Positions 21,220 to 29,996 of a stretch of DNA of 64,000 nt are shown here, piece after piece. This DNA comes from Thamnidium elegans (Eukaryota; Mucoromycota; Mucoromycetes; Mucorales; Mucoraceae): the NCBI GenBank assembly GCA_025201345.1, contig JAIXMG010000009.1, positions 186,001 to 250,000 on the forward strand, written 5' to 3'. The position numbers and the translations under genes are program-made. Within the stretch, counting starts at the first letter, position 1; the number at the start of each line of letters is the position of its first letter. The notes under the pieces are model-generated. The model worked only from the letters and a program-made list of their open reading frames with translations. It searched no databases and was not told the DNA's origin.

Positions 21220-22319
21220 ATGACAAAGACTAGCGAAAAAATCACGGTTCTCTTAAACTGGAAGGCAACACCTTACCATTTACCCCTGTTCTTAGCCTCC
21301 AAACTTGGTTTCTTTACCAAACAAGACATTTCAGTGGCCATCCTTGAACCTAACGACCCCTCTGATGTTACCGAAATTATCGGTTCCGGTAAAATAGATC
21401 TCGGTTTAAAGGCTATGATCCATACAATTGCCGGTAAAGCCCGAGGTTACCCCATCAAGTCCATCGGCACCCTTTTAGATGAACCCTTTACTGGTGTTAT
21501 CCATCCTAGTCATAAAAGTGGTATCACCTCTGATTTCAAGTCCTTGAGAGGCAAGAAGATTGGCTACGTAGGTGAGTTTGGCAAGATCCAGCTGGATCAA
21601 TTGGCTAGACAGTACGGTATGCAGGAGGGCGAATACGAGGCTGTTCGCGTCGGTATGAACGTGACTGATGCTATTAAGCGAGGTGAGATTGATGCTGGTA
21701 TTGGTATTGAGAATGTACAACAGGTTGAACTGGAGGAGTGGTCTGTTCAACAAGGAAGATCTCGTGATGATATTCAGATGCTTCGAATTGACGAACTTGC
21801 AGAATTGGGCTGCTGTTGTTTTTGCTCGGTAAATTAATTATAATATTAATAACAGTATAAAAATTTCTAACAATCTTCTTCTTTTAGATTCTTTATATTG
21901 GTAATGAAGACTTTATCAATAACAACCCAGAAAAGGTCGAAAAGTTTATGCGGGCTATTAAACAAGCAACCGATTATATGATCGCTAATCCTGCTGCTGC
22001 GTACCAAAAGTATGTTGAGATCAAGCCTCATTTGGATACTGATATTCAACGCAAGATCTTTCAAAGATCGTTCCGATACTTTTCTCGTGATTTGCAAAAT
22101 GTAGAACGTGATTGGAATAAGGTGACCAATTACTGTAAAGAGCTTGGTATTGTTGATGCTGGCTTTGCGCAAAACCAAACAAATGACTTCTTGACTTGGA
22201 AGTTGAACGAGCAAGGTCCTGGTGGTGTTGAACCTGCTACGGTTGAAACTGGTGTGGTTAAAGGTGGATGTAAGAGTTGTCAACATGCTAGTATCTCTCA
22301 ACCTGAGGTCTTTGCTTGA
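21220..22319 (+). CDS. THI5: 4-amino-5-hydroxymethyl-2-methylpyrimidine phosphate synthase (THI5/NMT1 family)
   Basis: Two exons, 21220-21828 and 21888-22319, with a 59-nt intron, give 346 aa, the usual family length. The enzyme makes the pyrimidine precursor of thiamine (HMP-P) from PLP and a histidine of the enzyme itself in a suicide reaction that needs iron. The expected landmarks are present: [16 protein letters not shown] at the start; GLKAMIHT with Lys64 and His68 (the family's PLP lysine and donor histidine); [29 protein letters not shown]; and the CCCFC motif around residues 199-203, interrupted soon after by the intron. The stop TGA at 22317-22319 is followed immediately by GTAAGT. 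A TPP aptamer lies at 22479-22610 on the same strand, so feedback by thiamine pyrophosphate at the RNA level is likely. Confidence 0.95.
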
Positions 22320-22479
22320 GTAAGTTTATCTCTTTTTTTTTTTTGTGTGCACCCGTATTTATGGAAGTACTAATTATGTTTCACTTTTTTTTTTTTTTAT
22401 GTTGTGTCTATATTTTTCTTTTCTTTTTATACGGTGTACACTATTATTATTATCATTATTTATTTTCATGTAATAATAG
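22320..22479 (+). other. Probable 3'UTR intron of THI5
   Basis: GTAAGT begins one base after the stop codon. TACTAAT at 22368-22374 is a good branch-point candidate. Between it and 22479 there is no other AG, so the first acceptor is ATAATAG ending at 22479. That last G is also the first base of the aptamer's P1 helix. A second acceptor, TCTATTTCAG ending at 22530, lies inside the P3 arm. This is a prediction from splice signals only. Confidence 0.6.
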
Positions 22480-22610
22480 GTCATAAGCTAGAGGTGCTAT
22501 ACAAAAAGTTTTTTTATTTTTCTATTTCAGAAAATAAGAAACAAGTATGGCTGAGAATTAAACTCTTAATACCTGATCAGGATAATACCTGCGAAGGGAA
22601 GCGTTTGACC
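22479..22610 (+). promoter_or_regulatory. TPP riboswitch (thi-box aptamer) in the 3' region of THI5
   Basis: The conserved core is present in order: GAGGTGCT (22491-22498), GGCTGAGA (22549-22556), then ACCTGATCAGGATAATACCT (22571-22590) and GCGAAGGGAA (22591-22600). P1 can form between GGTCATAAGC (22479-22488) and GCGTTTGACC (22601-22610). P2 is AGGT/ACCT, and P3 starts AUAC/GUAU with a long A/U arm (22502-22545), as in fungal variants. P5 is CAGG..CCUG. No gene on this strand starts downstream, so the aptamer belongs to the THI5 transcript, after its stop codon. The A-rich AATAAA-like sequence near 22655 would allow polyadenylation beyond it. Confidence 0.92.
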
Positions 22611-23493
22611 TTTATTAAATTCTTTTTTTATTTATATTTTGTAACCTCTTTAAAATAAAATAAAAAAATTCAATAGTTTTTGTAAACAAATAACCTCTTC
22701 TTACTGTCATGTTGATCTTATTAAAGTTATTAGACCTCCGCAAAAAAAACAAACAAAGGGGGAAACTTCTGCAAATGACGATTTCTTGCAAAACTCCGGC
22801 ATAAAATGCAAACTTAGACGAGTTTATACCATGCTTTTTTTTTATATAGCGTATATTGTTTGGTTTCAGAGATAAACTTCAAGGAGGATAGTTATAGTTC
22901 GATGTAAATGAATCTCGCGTGTTTTCGGTACAAATAAATTTTTTTTTTTTTTTTTTTTTTTTTGCCACCCGAATGCTATTGACAAATATTATTTCTGTGT
23001 GTGCTAAAAAGATAAGGACATCTGACTTCTTGATGAGGAAACTTACATTAATAATAGAGATGTAAATCGGCACTATAAAGGAAGAAAAATAAACCCCTTT
23101 AAGGGTTCAGAGGAAAAAAAAAACTCCCCGGTGTGGTTATTTCCATGTACTTAATTTGCTTTAAAAAAGATTATTATGACCTTTTAGATGTATTTCAAAT
23201 GTTTATATATATTACTACTACTTTTTTCCTGTTTTCACATGAATAAAAACTGTCGGTAGCATTGACTGACAGTTTTTTCTTCTTCCTTTTTGGTGTATAA
23301 AAAAATGATTTATATGTATTTTGTAAAAAAGAGACAGAAAAGAAAGAAATAATTTGTTTTTAAAAAAAAAAATTAAAAAAAAAAAATTCGGAATTGTTGT
23401 GTATTTTTTTTTTTAAAAAAAAAGAGAGAAAGAAAGAAAAAAAGAAAGAGAATTAGAGAGAGAAAGAGAGAGAAAGAGAGAGATAAAATCTAT
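22611..23493. other. Convergent intergenic region, THI5 and eIF3L 3' ends
   Basis: It contains poly-T (22938-22962), purine-rich GAAA/GAGA repeats (23420-23483) and the hairpin listed separately. No gene is seen. Confidence 0.6.
23245..23277. repeat. 13-bp stem-loop between convergent genes
   Basis: AAAAACTGTCGGT (23245-23257) pairs with ACTGACAGTTTTT (23265-23277) across a 7-nt loop, with one G-U pair. It is near-symmetrical, so it can form on both transcripts. A eukaryotic role in 3'-end formation or RNA stability is only a guess. Confidence 0.6.
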
Positions 23494-25141
23494 TTAAGCC
23501 TTGCTAAGTTCCAAGTTGGCCAAGATATCTTCGCAACGGTTAATGTTACGTAAGAACCAATCACCATAACGACGACCAACCTTGGATTCAGCAATATGAA
23601 CAACATCTTGCTTTAAACAGAAATCAAGATCGGAAGTAGGTAAATATTCACCTTCCAAGAGGTTACCGCTGACCCACTTGTATTGACGAGACTTTTGCTT
23701 AAAGATCAATAATTGAGTGGTAAGTTCATCTGAATCGATTTCCAAAAATTTGGCCAACTTTTCAATACCCATAGAGGTATAAAGCTTCATAAATGAGCGA
23801 AGTGTAGGGAGGTTCATTTGGTTCTTGATATCTGCCATAAACACCTTGAGTTGGTTTTGATGAGGATCAGTACCCTTACCGGTAGGTGAAAGGAACTTGG
23901 GACAAGCAAATTGGAATAAATCAACATAAACTGCAAGAGAATCTTCTCCCTTTTGCATCTTGAAAAGTTGTTCACCGTACTTTTCACGAAGTTGAGAATG
24001 AATGTTTTCATCTAATCTAGTAGGACAAAGAGCAATACAGATAGCTAAAAGAGCATACATTTGATCTCCCTTTTTAGCAATTTGATCAAATTGGTATGAG
24101 CGAGAATGATATTGCTTGGTTCTTTGAATGAAAGATAAAACGGTTGAGAAAGCCTTGATGGCATCAGCATATCTGCGGAGCATCATGTAAGCGAAACCAA
24201 CATAATAATAAGTAGTGACATGACAGGCAGTAACACGGGCAAACATAGCCTTCTTGTTTAAAACGATGTTATCCATCATCTTTAAAGCCAAAACATAATC
24301 ACCTAATAAACAATGAACACGTACAAGACCTACAATAGAGAAATAACCCAACATCTTATAAAGAGGACGAGATCCATATTCACCAGCTGCTTCCATCATA
24401 TCACCGCCGTTCTTGCTAACTAATAATTGTTCATTGATACGAGATTTTTGAATAAAAGAATAAAGTACGTTTAAAACACTGTAACAGCTCCAAATTTGTG
24501 AATTTTCCTTTAATAAGTCGGCTTCTTGGTCAGACTTTCCCTTGATACGGTCACGATAATTACAGAAAGATTGGAATTGGTAAATGAATTCGTCAATAAT
24601 ATCCCAAAGCCATTGGTTAGGCAATTCTAAAGAAACAGGTCCATCAGAGTCTAATAAAAAAAAAAGGGAACATTAGTGATTTTGCTACTTTCAAAAAAGG
24701 TCTACATTGTTGCCATTGTTGAATATTTACTCAAGATATAGTTGAAAAGATCACAATAGTTTTCATAAGAATGGAAACGTTGTTCCAAAGTAGGAGTCAA
24801 ACGAGCATAAATGTGACGATAATAAAGTTCGCGATACAATGTTAAAAATACTTGATCTAAAAAAGAAAAAAAAGTATTAAGATAGAATTCGTGCATGTAT
24901 ATATAAAAAAAAGTGGATGTATTACCATCATTGACAAGAGGGGCAATGACTTCAGCTTCAGGCCAAGCTTGCTTTTGATAATACTTTTCGGTCAACTTGT
25001 TGAAAGAGCTATCAAAGATATTGTGGAGTTCATAAATGTTGCTATCAATGACGTTACGGTAAAAGTGAAGAATAAAGTTTCTAACGCCATCAGGAATTTG
25101 AGCAGTTGTGGTTTGGCTAGAAACAACTGTTTTTTTTTTAG

Positions 25142-25582: not shown

Positions 25583-27910
25583 ATGTCGCTTCAACTTATT
25601 CGTAAGGCAGTTCCTGGAGCTGACGAAGCAATTATTGAATATATTGAAGGATATTTACGTGAAAATGACTTTGAGGATGATGAAGATGCCGTAACCGATT
25701 TCATTAAGCCCATCTTGATCGATGCAGGAGGCGACGAAGATAAAATCAATGAGCTTTGTGAACATTTATCCGAGCTCTTACAAGCCAACCAAAGAGCAAC
25801 CGCACCTGCCAAATTATCTAAATTAGAACATTCATTCACCATGAATACCCAAACCGGAATTTCCGCTACTTCCAGTTTAGGAAAAGGCGCAGTAGATTTA
25901 GAACATGCATCTGGTCGCAGAGTTCAATCTCAAGTAAATCAAGACAAGTTGCGTAAAGCAGAGTTAAAGATTGCCGCCAAGATGGCTAAGCGTAACGAAA
26001 AGAACAATATCAAGGTTGAATATGAAGCTTCTCGCTTATTAAACGAGCAAAAGGCCTTGCAAGAAGAATACAAAATGTACAATCCTATTTTGGATTATAC
26101 TACTACCAAGGGAAAGAACAAGGATATCAAGATCGAGAATTTCGATATCTCTTTTGCTGGTCGTCGTATTTTAACAGATGCCAATTTAACTGTTGCCTTT
26201 GGTAGAAGATATGGTGTTGTCGGTAAGAACGGTATCGGTAAATCTACTTTACTTCGTGCCATGTCTCGTCGTGAAATTTCTGTACCTGCTCATATTTCAC
26301 TTTTATATGTTGAGCAAGAGGTAAGTACTAATACGTATGTACAATTCTTTTTTCTTTCAGATTACTAAATAAATAAATATATATATATATATTAGGTTGT
26401 TGGTGATGATACACCTGCTCTTGAAGTCGTTCTTCGCGCCGATGTCTGGCGTGAACATTTGCTTGAAAAGGAACGTAACTTGACTCACCGTATTAACGAG
26501 ATTGAATCTGAACAAAACGACGAAGATTTAACTGAAGAAGAAAAGAGAGAGTTAGATGCTGAAAGAGATAGATTGGATATTGAGATGAAGGAAGTATTCG
26601 CCAAGTTAACAGAGATTGAAAGTGATAAAGCAGAGAGTAAGGCATCAGCTATTTTGGCTGGTCTTGGTTTCAGCACTGCCGAACAAAAGAGACCTACCAG
26701 AGAGTTCTCTGGTGGTTGGAGAATGAGAATTTCACTTGCTCGTGCATTGTTCTGTAAACCTGATGTTTTAATGCTTGATGAACCTGATAACATGTTGGAT
26801 GTAAGTTTTGTTGTTTGTAACCAAATTGTTTTATTTGTGTGTACTTACAAAAAAATATCTTGTGTATATTAGATCCCTGCTATTGTTTGGTTAGAAAGTT
26901 ACCTTAAAACATGGACAAATACTTTACTTGTTGTTTCTCACGACAGAGAATTTTTGGATGAAGTTGCAACTGACATTTTATACATGCACTCTGAGAAATT
27001 AGAATATTATAAGGGTAACTTTACCAACTTCCACGCTACAAGAGAGGAACGTCGTAAAGCACAATTCAGAGAGTACGAATCTCAAGAACAATACCGTAAA
27101 CATCTTCAAGACTTTATTGATCGTTGGAGATATAATGCTAAACGTGCTCCTCAAGCACAATCCAAGATTAAGATCCTTGAAAAGTTACCTGTTTTAGAAC
27201 CACCAGAGGCTGAGAAATTGATTACCTTCCAATTCTCTGACCCTGATCAATTATCACCACCTATTCTTCAAATGTCCGAAGTCACCTTTGGTTATACACC
27301 TGAAAAGACCATTATTAAACACGTCAATATTGACTTAAGAATGGATTCACGTATTGCTGTTGTTGGTCCTAATGGTGCAGGTAAATCTACCATGTTAAAG
27401 TTATTAACTGAAGAAAATAAGCCTTCTTCTGGTATTGTGCATAGAAACGGTCGTCTTCGTATCGCTTACTTTACTCAACATCATATTGATCAACTTGACT
27501 TAACAAAGAATGCGGTTGGATTTATGGCAGATCAATTCCCTGGTAAATCAGAAGAAGAGTATCGTCGTCATTTAGGTTCATTTGGTATTACTGGTATGGT
27601 AGGTCTTCAAATTATGAAGACTTTATCTGGTGGTCAAAAATCTCGTGTCGCTTTTGCTTGTCTTAGTATGCAAAACCCTCATATCTTGGTTCTTGATGAA
27701 CCTACTAACCATTTGGATATTGAATCAATGGATGCCTTACAAGAGGCTCTTGCTCAATTCAAGGGTGGTGTTATTATTGTTTCTCACGATGAAAGATTTA
27801 TTAACACTGTTTGTAACGAAATTTGGATTTGTGAAGGTGGTATTCTTACCAAGTTTGAAGGTACTATTAAAGATTATAAGAATGTTATCTGTCCCAAGGA
27901 CACTCCATAA
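25583..27910 (+). CDS. GCN20: ABC-F ATPase, GCN20/ABCF3 type
   Basis: Three exons, 25583-26320, 26396-26800 and 26873-27910, give 726 aa. An upstream in-frame start at 25550 is A-run leader; the ATG at 25583 gives the normal MSLQLIRKAVPGADE-type beginning. Two ABC domains are complete. The first has Walker A GKNGIGKST (about residue 213), signature FSGGW (about 349) and Walker B LMLDEP (about 371). The second has GPNGAGKST (about 545), LSGGQ (about 632) and LVLDEP (about 652). There are no membrane segments. Gcn20 binds Gcn1 on ribosomes and supports Gcn2 activation in amino acid starvation. The residue after the first Walker B reads DEPDNMLD instead of the usual DEP(T/S)NMLD. Confidence 0.95.
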
Positions 27911-27960
27911 ATCGTTTTTTTCTCAAAGAAAAAATATTTACTGTATACATAATAATAAAA

Positions 27961-27962
27961 TA

Positions 27963-28007
<45 letters not shown>
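27961..28007. repeat. (TA)n microsatellite between convergent genes
   Basis: About 20 TA units lie in the 118-bp gap between the GCN20 stop and the F-box gene stop. Confidence 0.9.
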
Positions 28008-28011
<4 letters not shown>

Positions 28012-28028
28012 TTGTACTATTTTATTGC

Positions 28029-29996
28029 TTAAAATATTGAAAATGTAATGTCGGATACAGTCTTTATATGAAAGATGATTGTATATAGTAAAGGAATTGA
28101 AGCCCCTCGTTTTAGCCGGATATCGTTTTCCACCTGTACATAGTCCCCTGAAATACTTTGGTAAGTATGAAAACTAGTTCTGTTTTCATACGAATCGGTC
28201 ATATTTTTAAGTTTAATCAAGATGAGATACTCACGTTCATATATCGATGGTACCGACAGATGTAGTTCTTGCAAGTGTTTATGATCAGTTAAATCCAATA
28301 AGAAAGTGCCTTGCGGCTCCACTCGTTCAGATGGATTACTGTAAAAACGACCCAATAAATGTTTAAGCTTTGGTACGATAGGTTCGTCATCGAGTCTATC
28401 ACTTTCTATTGTCAGGACACGTATATCAGGAAAGAAATCCTTGCTGAGACGAGACAAGTCTCTAATATGAGCGCTCGCTACACCATATTCTCTTACATAC
28501 TTGGCAATATATTGGCAATCGATTTCTGATTCAGGTTCATTTAACTGATGCGTGTAAATCTTCAAGATATCTATATGACTAAAATTAGCCAAAGCGTACT
28601 TTACCACACCATTGGGCTCATTGTTCGTGACGATTATATCTAATTCTTTCTTCTGGCCTACCATCACAATTGGACTGATATCTACTAAAAACGGAGACGA
28701 AAGATTGGTATGATTTCTAAACATAAAATCGATATATGCTATAGCATATTCAAAGTACAAGTGTTGATCATTTGCAATTTGGAAACTAAAGTTTGTTGAT
28801 TTATTGATAGGTCGTCTTTGTTTAAAGAATAAATGAAACCTTGTATGAGAAGATCGGAGTTTTCTTGAAGGACCTTTCAAGGTATTGAGAAACGTACACA
28901 GTAAATTGGTTTGTCGGTGGATGATTGGACTTATACTTTCTATTGTTACTGAACTAGATAATACGCTCATGGTAAATACCAAGTCTTTAATTAAACTAAG
29001 GTGATTGGCAAATTGAAGGATTGTCGTTTGACAGTTTTGATCTAACCAAGTATGTATATTGGTTCGAGTCAATCTCAGTTTGAACCTTTTTAAAGACGGT
29101 ATATGCGATACAATGTATTTCATTTGCGATGTGTTGATGGTAGGCAATACTAATGAAAGTGTTGTTAAATTAAAATGAGGAGTGGATGGTAAATAATCCG
29201 GTACTCTTTCATTAGAAATATCATGTAAATATTCGTGCTCGTAAACTTGTATACATAGTTTTCGCGTATCTCGAGGGAATTCATCGTAATTATCAGGCAA
29301 GTAAAAACTGTTTAGTACTGTAAATTCGACGAGGCTAGGGCACTGACAGAGAAAGAAAGCCATTAATGATTCATCGTAGGCTTTGGGAATCCTAAAAGCA
29401 TAGTTGTTATGAATAGTTAGATGAGTAAGTTTAGTGTAAGTATGAATACACTTCATCCAACGTTCTAAAGTCATGTCGGAAAATGTTATACGCGTAATGG
29501 TTTGATGAAATTGTTGGCATAAATTAACATGACATCCTATTATTGCTTCATATAATAGTGAAATCTCTGTTGGTACTTCAGGGTGTTTGCGAACAATAAT
29601 TTCTTGAATCCGTGGTAAATTCATGTGGAAATCATGTGAAAGAAGCAGACCAAAAATCTTGCCAAACAAGAACGGACTATCCGAGAAATCCAACACTTTT
29701 AAATTTGAAAAATTACATAATACACTTTGAACAAAATGTTTTTCTTGTGAAAAGTTAGTCTTGATTTCTGTTATAACTAGTTTTTCTATTGTGTTTTTGT
29801 ATCGATATATAGGATGTGATAAATCTATTATTCCAGGAATATTGTTTTCAATATGTAGTTCTTTATAGAATAAGACACTGGCAGAGGATGACCATAATTT
29901 ACAAACGTATATACATTGATATAAAGTTGAGTGAGGTAAGTAGAGTAGAATATCTTCAAGTATTTCGGTAGGAAGATTTTGTGGTCCCAGGAGCAT
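28029..29996 (-). CDS. F-box / leucine-rich-repeat-like protein
   Basis: Single exon of 655 aa from the ATG at 29996. The first 45 residues form an F-box (LPTEILEDILLYLPHSTLYQ then CKLWSS), which would bind Skp1 in an SCF ubiquitin ligase. The rest consists of irregular repeats with L..L.... patterns (for example LTHLTIHNN, LVEFTVLNS, LTTLSLVLP, IDILKIYTH) that fit a divergent leucine-rich-repeat domain. The target is unknown. Such F-box/LRR proteins are numerous and fast evolving in Mucorales. It has no introns, unlike most genes here. Confidence 0.85.
   Translation of the reverse strand: MLLGPQNLPTEILEDILLYLPHSTLYQCIYVCKLWSSSASVLFYKELHIENNIPGIIDLSHPIYRYKNTIEKLVITEIKTNFSQEKHFVQSVLCNFSNLKVLDFSDSPFLFGKIFGLLLSHDFHMNLPRIQEIIVRKHPEVPTEISLLYEAIIGCHVNLCQQFHQTITRITFSDMTLERWMKCIHTYTKLTHLTIHNNYAFRIPKAYDESLMAFFLCQCPSLVEFTVLNSFYLPDNYDEFPRDTRKLCIQVYEHEYLHDISNERVPDYLPSTPHFNLTTLSLVLPTINTSQMKYIVSHIPSLKRFKLRLTRTNIHTWLDQNCQTTILQFANHLSLIKDLVFTMSVLSSSVTIESISPIIHRQTNLLCTFLNTLKGPSRKLRSSHTRFHLFFKQRRPINKSTNFSFQIANDQHLYFEYAIAYIDFMFRNHTNLSSPFLVDISPIVMVGQKKELDIIVTNNEPNGVVKYALANFSHIDILKIYTHQLNEPESEIDCQYIAKYVREYGVASAHIRDLSRLSKDFFPDIRVLTIESDRLDDEPIVPKLKHLLGRFYSNPSERVEPQGTFLLDLTDHKHLQELHLSVPSIYEREYLILIKLKNMTDSYENRTSFHTYQSISGDYVQVENDIRLKRGASIPLLYTIIFHIKTVSDITFSIF

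Follow-up and report, generated by a model that had tools for sequence, protein, structure and literature searches.

The characterised fungal TPP riboswitches described in PMC5882874 and PMC5997356 act from 5' leaders or from coding introns, and the initial annotation of the locus discussed here gave the same picture. In Neurospora, the riboswitches of NMT1 and THI4 are of type I, located in a 5'UTR intron (PMC5882874). For the Mucoromycota, a 2024 survey (PMC11683625) names NMT1, THI4 and sugar transporters as prevalent targets, and states that its TPPsw-SUGAR group is consistently found in the 5'UTR; for Mucor irregularis and M. lusitanicus it also mentions ATP-binding proteins of the ABC type that lack membrane segments. 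The single 3'UTR position for a fungus in PMC5882874 is that of a TPP element of Postia placenta eIF5B. Outside fungi, 3'UTR aptamers are described for plants (PMC10226581), diatoms (PMC9544697) and prasinophytes (PMC4260697), the plant case being the THIC riboswitch of Wachter 2007 and Bocobza 2007 as summarised in PMC10226581. Among the matches listed, subscription literature aside, none reports a 3'UTR TPP riboswitch in Mucoromycota. What, then, is a TPP aptamer doing behind the stop codon of THI5 in the mould Thamnidium elegans (Mucorales)?

The window (the whole 64-kb stretch of T. elegans DNA that was analysed) carries a complete THI5 gene of two exons, whose spliced open frames give a 346-aa product that is 100% identical to a deposited Thamnidium elegans protein and ends before the aptamer (Table 1). 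THI5 looks single-copy, judging by a family search of the genome that returned its two exons and one weak match elsewhere. A scan of genome contigs also turned up six bacterial THI5-like loci (L014-L019, 48-53% identity), two Chlamydiales MAGs among them, which are uninformative on the THI5 3' region; a scan of viral contigs found no THI5 relatives. The aptamer behind THI5 covers the full RF00059 model (1-105), stands above the gathering score of 54.3 bits and is the sole Rfam match over its own cut-off in the window. Its fold (22475-22616) has a z of -3.28, with one of 200 shuffles as good, and together with the RF00059 E-value this puts the aptamer beyond chance. The initial annotation had placed a TPP aptamer past the THI5 stop on the same strand and had proposed an RF00059 search as a check; that search is significant, and the observation of a 3'-placed TPP aptamer at THI5 is confirmed.

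To which gene does this aptamer belong? The next gene downstream, PAF67, is convergent, and the next plus-strand gene, encoding an ABC-family ATPase, lies about 3 kb from the aptamer, beyond PAF67, in agreement with the earlier remark that no downstream plus-strand gene is there to claim it. An open-frame scan of the plus strand found no start of a frame of at least 90 codons between 22658 and 24861, and a stop-to-stop frame that overlaps the aptamer (22374-22658, plus strand) has no Pfam match. The convergent neighbour, the distant ATPase and the lack of a Pfam-matched frame argue that the aptamer is owned by the THI5 transcript, of which it is, on this gene arrangement, most likely a part.

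Is THI5 an isolated case? A genome search with RF00059 detected at least five TPP aptamers, and the count was still five at E<=10, in a search that scored 49 of 984 first-look candidates and may miss weak aptamers. The four besides THI5 reach 53.0, 49.6, 48.5 and 46.7 bits (E 1.9e-8 to 6.8e-7, genome search), below the Rfam gathering score, which the THI5 aptamer alone passes among the five detected. Each of the five is found behind a stop codon, at a distance of 93-329 nt and on the same strand as the gene, and it is on this position and strand that their apparent placement in 3'UTRs rests. The MFS protein of locus L002 finds its best resemblances, below the curated cut-offs, in lactate and oxalate/formate carriers (Pfam, NCBIfam). 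Three of the five loci are followed by a convergent gene: PAF67 at THI5, a ribosomal protein L13 family member at THI4 and, at L002, an open frame of 388 codons that matches nothing in Pfam. Beyond the sugar-porter aptamers of L003 and L004 lies a same-strand gene, a PHO4-type transporter at about 1.1 kb and PRP39 at about 0.55 kb, respectively, and same-strand frames of 115 and 110 codons, neither with a Pfam match, are nearer the THI4 and L004 aptamers. None of the five aptamers is upstream of a thiamine or transporter gene, as a fungal type I (5'UTR intron) riboswitch would be, and none is found between coding exons, judged by open frames, where types II and III belong. The four further 3'-placed aptamers strengthen the assignment of the window's copy to THI5 and its 3' location, both of which are supported on sequence grounds.

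Table 1. Features of the THI5 locus, with positions in the window, and the further TPP aptamers of the T. elegans genome.
Feature	Position	Strand	Evidence or remark
THI5 exon 1	21220..21828	+	ORF, spliced protein; NMT1/THI5 domain, E 1.2e-49
THI5 coding intron, 59 nt, GTAAAT...TTTTAG	21829..21887	+	spliced product equals the T. elegans protein
THI5 exon 2, stop TGA at 22317-22319	21888..22319	+	ORF, spliced protein
Candidate 3'UTR splice donor GTAAGT	22320..22325	+	adjoins TGA; 68th percentile of 37 model introns
Predicted long stem-loop enclosing TACTAAT and a U tract	22345..22441	+	between donor and aptamer
Branch-point-like TACTAAT	22368..22374	+	about 105 nt before the 22479 AG
Predicted AU hairpin pairing AATAATA before the 22479 acceptor	22445..22478	+	fold prediction
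Candidate acceptor TAG, first AG after TACTAAT	22477..22479	+	G can pair with C22610, extending P1 outward
TPP riboswitch aptamer (RF00059) of THI5 (NMT1/THI5 domain)	22480..22616; 160 nt after stop	+ (gene's strand)	covariance search, 62.4 bits, E 7.5e-10
Candidate acceptor CAG, in extended P3	22528..22530	+	splicing there would cut off the 5' strands of P1 and P2
Pyrimidine-binding motif GCTGAGA	22550..22556	+	invariant in 5/5 aptamers
Convergent neighbour, PAF67 (3' part of gene)	23494..24672	-	open frame; PF10255, E 3.7e-126 on 23494-24399
Next plus-strand gene, ABC-family ATPase, several exons	25583..27910	+	PF00005 on first open frame
L002 aptamer, MFS transporter	113 nt after stop; L002:1501-1618	gene's strand	Pfam, NCBIfam
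L003 aptamer, sugar porter	239 nt after stop; L003:1501-1614	gene's strand	Pfam, NCBIfam
L004 aptamer, sugar porter	329 nt after stop	gene's strand	Pfam, NCBIfam
L005 aptamer, THI4	93 nt after stop	gene's strand	Pfam, NCBIfam

Alignments place the GCTGAGA motif and the pyrophosphate-side GCG in all five aptamers. When the copies are laid out in the Rfam register, standard pairs fill 83 of the 90 core cells (P1, P2, P4 and P5) and 10 of the 18 core pairs have both sides changed between some two copies, while P4 pair 4 is G-A in three aptamers and P1 pair 2 fails in three, a comparison of five sequences from one genome with P3 left out that is supportive and not a formal test. A TPP core pattern recovered four of the five aptamers; it missed the window's THI5 copy because the P3 of this copy is longer than the pattern allowed. 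The same pattern fits a sixth place, C24:331745-331787 (L023), but this was rejected, having no RF00059 match at E<=10. The genome-wide 3' placement of the five detected aptamers is the main finding, and it varies the TPP riboswitch arrangement of fungi in a new way.

How could such different genes have come to carry the same element? The aptamers of L002 and L003 are identical at 94 of 111 positions, and the long blastn match between the two loci (117 nt, 79.5%) spans about the aptamer alone; blastp aligned none of the last exon of the L002 transporter (169 aa) with the L003 protein. Between L003 and L004, on the other hand, the sugar porters are 53% identical, and the aptamers match at only 65 of 97 positions. 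Similar aptamers behind unrelated transporters and diverged ones behind related porters speak for aptamer copying, and the aptamer seems, from these alignments, to have been copied between the 3'UTRs of unrelated genes. L002 also contains an inverted repeat of 15 bp just 3' of the aptamer (minus strand), in which about 170 nt separate GAGGAGCCAAAAAAA from its complement (L002:1293-1307 and 1480-1494); this repeat could compete with an extended P1. A repeated mobile element behind this inverted repeat was considered and rejected, as the stretch is single copy in a genome search.

These loci share features with each of the described systems and depart from each in position, gene or lineage. T. 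elegans agrees with Neurospora in the core that binds the ligand and in the two biosynthetic genes concerned, NMT1/THI5 and THI4; its aptamers, however, lie after the stop, a position that leaves no room for the type I logic based on uORFs. As in the TPPsw-SUGAR group, aptamers occur at sugar-transporter genes, and in the same phylum, yet both sugar-porter aptamers of T. elegans are 3' of the transporter, which conflicts with the 5'UTR position stated in the survey. By analogy with the gene order in the window, the ABC-type proteins mentioned for Mucor may be the ATPase behind THI5, that is, a THI5 3' riboswitch may have been assigned to the next gene. Diatoms and prasinophytes resemble T. elegans in having TPP aptamers in the 3'UTRs of thiamine-related genes; they are algae, not fungi, and the diatom THIC aptamer that was tested is unresponsive to thiamine. 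The Postia placenta element differs in belonging to a gene without a thiamine role, and according to PMC5882874 it was not validated by the authors' energy method. The plant THIC arrangement is matched by an aptamer that follows the stop codon of a thiamine gene in the pyrimidine branch and, at THI5, by a candidate splice-donor sequence between stop and aptamer. The gene is THI5, though, not THIC, and four more genes have a 3' aptamer; the plant gene has a poly(A) site inside its regulated intron, and the likeness of THI5 to it is one of DNA sequence.

Does the THI5 3' region look like an intron? Both the GTAAGT by the TGA and the TACTAAT reported in the initial annotation are present, the former directly after the stop. 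Splice sites were scored against an ab initio set of 61 introns from 274 kb, of which 20 were kept in an earlier model and 37 (<=110 nt) in a later one. In the 37-intron model the THI5 3' donor belongs to the best-scoring 0.5% of all GT; its 68th percentile among the introns of that model compares with the 40th in the 20-intron model. Among control ORF ends (stop-to-stop frames of >=150 codons on both strands, a set that includes frames ending inside introns, non-genes and some riboswitch-bearing genes), a donor as good was found within 30 nt in none of 125 and within 160 nt in five of 125, and the string GTAAGT within 30 nt in none of 126. As for the branch point, a CTRAY motif occurs in 21 of the 61 model introns at a distance to the end with a median of 25, an upper quartile of 74 and a 95th percentile of 149, so the branch-to-AG distance at THI5 falls in the upper quarter, long though within range.

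The acceptors are less distinguished. The one at 22479 ranks at the 22nd percentile in the 37-intron model and below the 15th in the 20-intron model; for the one at 22530 the values are the 46th percentile and below the 15th. The AG at 22479 had been read as the first base of P1, and its G can indeed lengthen that helix, but in the Rfam register P1 starts at 22485; the second acceptor does fall inside P3, in its extended part. Past the THI5 aptamer there are higher-scoring acceptors (20-intron model), one +357 from the stop (80th percentile) and one at +530 (85th percentile); in L004 an acceptor at +517 reaches the 85th percentile, and this locus has a donor at +144. With better acceptors after the aptamer, an intron enclosing the whole aptamer is also possible. 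The AG of P2, which is the acceptor used in plants and green algae according to PMC9544697, was rejected as a candidate, ranking between the 0th and 11th percentile across the five aptamers.

The RNA between the THI5 stop and the aptamer is predicted to be unusually structured. The stretch 22320-22478 has a z of -5.59, with none of 200 shuffles as good, and the THI5 stop-to-aptamer region, at z -5.07, compares with none of 93 control 3' flanks at or below -5 and one at or below -4. The lowest of these control flanks is that of the ABC-family ATPase (27911-28070), itself an unusually good fold at z -4.4. The corresponding values elsewhere are -3.69 (L002), -1.09 (L003), 0.13 (L004) and 0.54 (THI4), strong structure being seen in only two of the five loci. 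In these predictions, the structured stop-to-aptamer RNA of THI5 would be a lead, not a mechanism.

Would TPP binding expose or hide the splice sites? In the predictions, forcing the aptamer leaves donor, branch and acceptors almost as exposed as before, and the 22479 acceptor is predicted to be unpaired at 0.06 and 0.07 with the aptamer forced or not. When the aptamer is penalised, this value rises from 0.07 to 0.17 and that of the donor falls from 0.51 to 0.37, while the 22530 site stays at 0.60. The AU hairpin is predicted to keep the 22479 site mostly paired in each state. The predicted effect of the aptamer fold would thus be to hide the 22479 acceptor slightly and to expose the donor slightly; of the earlier proposal that the TPP-bound aptamer hides the acceptors, a slight effect at 22479 survives and none at 22530. 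Pairing between the THI5 donor region and the aptamer, at -14.3 kcal/mol, is equalled or bettered by 55% of 500 shuffles, and 50 of 116 upstream windows do as well (THI5 locus only). Plant-like donor-aptamer pairing at THI5, no better than shuffles, was accordingly rejected, and here THI5 differs from plant THIC, whose aptamer-donor complementarity is undetectable at this locus. Of the plant-like arrangement put forward in the initial annotation, the 3' position is supported and the THI5 donor is a candidate. The coupling of the aptamer to a 3'UTR intron has the strong donor at the stop on one side, and on the other ordinary acceptors, chance-level donor-aptamer pairing and a donor that is not common to the five loci; from these signals, such coupling at THI5 is plausible.

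The remaining loci do not repeat the THI5 layout. L003 and L004 have moderate 3' donors at +147 and +144 (35th and 27th percentile), and THI4 and L002 have acceptors both at the 86th percentile with no 3'UTR donor above the 5th. Comparisons of donors, pairing and folds found no expression platform common to all five loci. Since there is no common platform, control of 3' RNA processing, at one step or another, is taken as the likeliest mode of the five aptamers.

How might an aptamer in this position work? The sequence shows the aptamer and its core pairs, placed behind the stop on the strand of the gene, together with a good donor sequence right at the THI5 stop; beyond the five, the genome search yielded no RF00059 match. 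On the reading that we favour, and that we hold to be probable with a fair share of doubt, THI5 carries a 3'UTR TPP switch, one of five 3'-placed aptamers in T. elegans, that alters 3'-end processing. Abundant TPP would let the aptamer fold and thereby alter the processing of the 3' end of the pre-mRNA, whether by splicing a 3'UTR intron, by selecting a poly(A) site, or by both; the mRNA would become less stable or less used, amounting to feedback repression. At THI5 the likeliest form would be splicing of a 3'UTR intron from 22320 as against a retained, aptamer-bearing 3'UTR, and the other four loci would probably reach the same outcome through different splice or poly(A) signals. In favour of this reading, the upstream genes are THI5, THI4 and MFS or sugar transporters, and the TPP target groups given for Mucoromycota in PMC11683625 are NMT1, THI4 and sugar transporters; the RF00059 match, the location of all five aptamers after stops, the convergent next gene in three of five and the kept core pairing point the same way, as do the GTAAGT abutting the THI5 stop and the strongly structured RNA that follows it. 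Against it stand the four aptamers below the gathering score, the ordinary acceptors, the chance pairing and the small fold change, the two loci (THI4, L002) without a usable donor and the restriction of strong structure to two of five, and also the conserved diatom 3'UTR TPP aptamer that shows no thiamine response in PMC9544697.

The same 3' position could serve polyadenylation without any splicing, the aptamer or an extended P1 favouring or blocking a nearby poly(A) site and the splice motifs being there by chance. Each of the three transporter loci has an AATAAA in the stretch from the stop to the aptamer (+12, +107 and +105), and in THI4 and THI5 it occurs only past the aptamer; at 2.2 per kb, however, this string is so common that its presence near aptamers proves little, and it is absent before the aptamer at the two biosynthetic genes. 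A rarer string, AATAAATAG, with 16 occurrences on both strands of 548 kb that include the loci concerned, is found near the aptamer in three of five (L002, L003, L005). Two loci without a usable 3'UTR donor, and two with moderate ones some 145 nt past the stop, also suit polyadenylation, whereas the unusual GTAAGT at the THI5 stop does not, and fungal poly(A) sites are not callable from sequence here; all in all, we consider this account rather unlikely. The model of the initial annotation, in which TPP binding would prevent splicing of the 3'UTR intron by hiding both acceptors, 22479 and 22530, draws on the strong donor, on the ability of 22479 to extend P1 and of 22530 to sit in P3, and on the slight opening of 22479 once the aptamer is penalised. 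Given that 22479 is mostly paired in each state, that 22530 does not respond, that both acceptors score as ordinary and that in plants TPP promotes the 3'UTR splice rather than preventing it (PMC10226581), this exact form is unlikely. An aptamer lying wholly within a longer 3'UTR intron would make use of the better acceptors downstream of it, at THI5 and, paired with its own donor, at L004. These acceptors, however, are themselves rich in A or T, stand in a flank that is AT-rich as well and have no branch-like motif within about 60 nt, and L002 and L003 have no such pair of sites, which leaves the longer intron very improbable.

It is also conceivable that these RNAs bind TPP and are conserved in the 3'UTR while not regulating their genes by thiamine. 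The diatom THIC aptamer, with negative reporter and 3' RACE data in PMC9544697, is a precedent, and five loci without a common platform would fit it. Five diverged copies have nonetheless kept ligand motifs and pairing, and the only genes that they follow are those for thiamine and for transporters, a pattern suggestive of selection for regulation that makes a silent aptamer quite improbable. Could the aptamers instead be 5' leaders of the next downstream gene? Two of the five loci have their next Pfam-matched gene on the same strand (the PHO4-type transporter and PRP39); in the other three the next gene is convergent, the nearer same-strand frames of 110-115 codons at THI4 and L004 have no Pfam match, and THI5 and THI4 are themselves among the upstream genes, so that this possibility deserves next to no credence.

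What does the 3' switch reading mean for the biology of these fungi? The arrangement points to a plant-like way of control in T. elegans, as far as sequence can tell. A broader proposal, that the TPP regulon of the Mucorales has moved entirely to 3'UTRs, is controlled there by splicing or polyadenylation independently of plants and has spread its aptamer as a module among the 3'UTRs of unrelated transporters, is one we advance tentatively and with somewhat more doubt than belief. If the 3'UTR placement of the whole regulon is true, the published 5'UTR assignments in Mucoromycota would be partly wrong, and the placement in T. elegans already calls for a re-check of the published gene assignments in this phylum. 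With five detected aptamers, all after stops, T. elegans would represent a further eukaryotic lineage with plant-like 3' placement, and it allows a direct test of whether riboswitch control from the 3'UTR evolves repeatedly.
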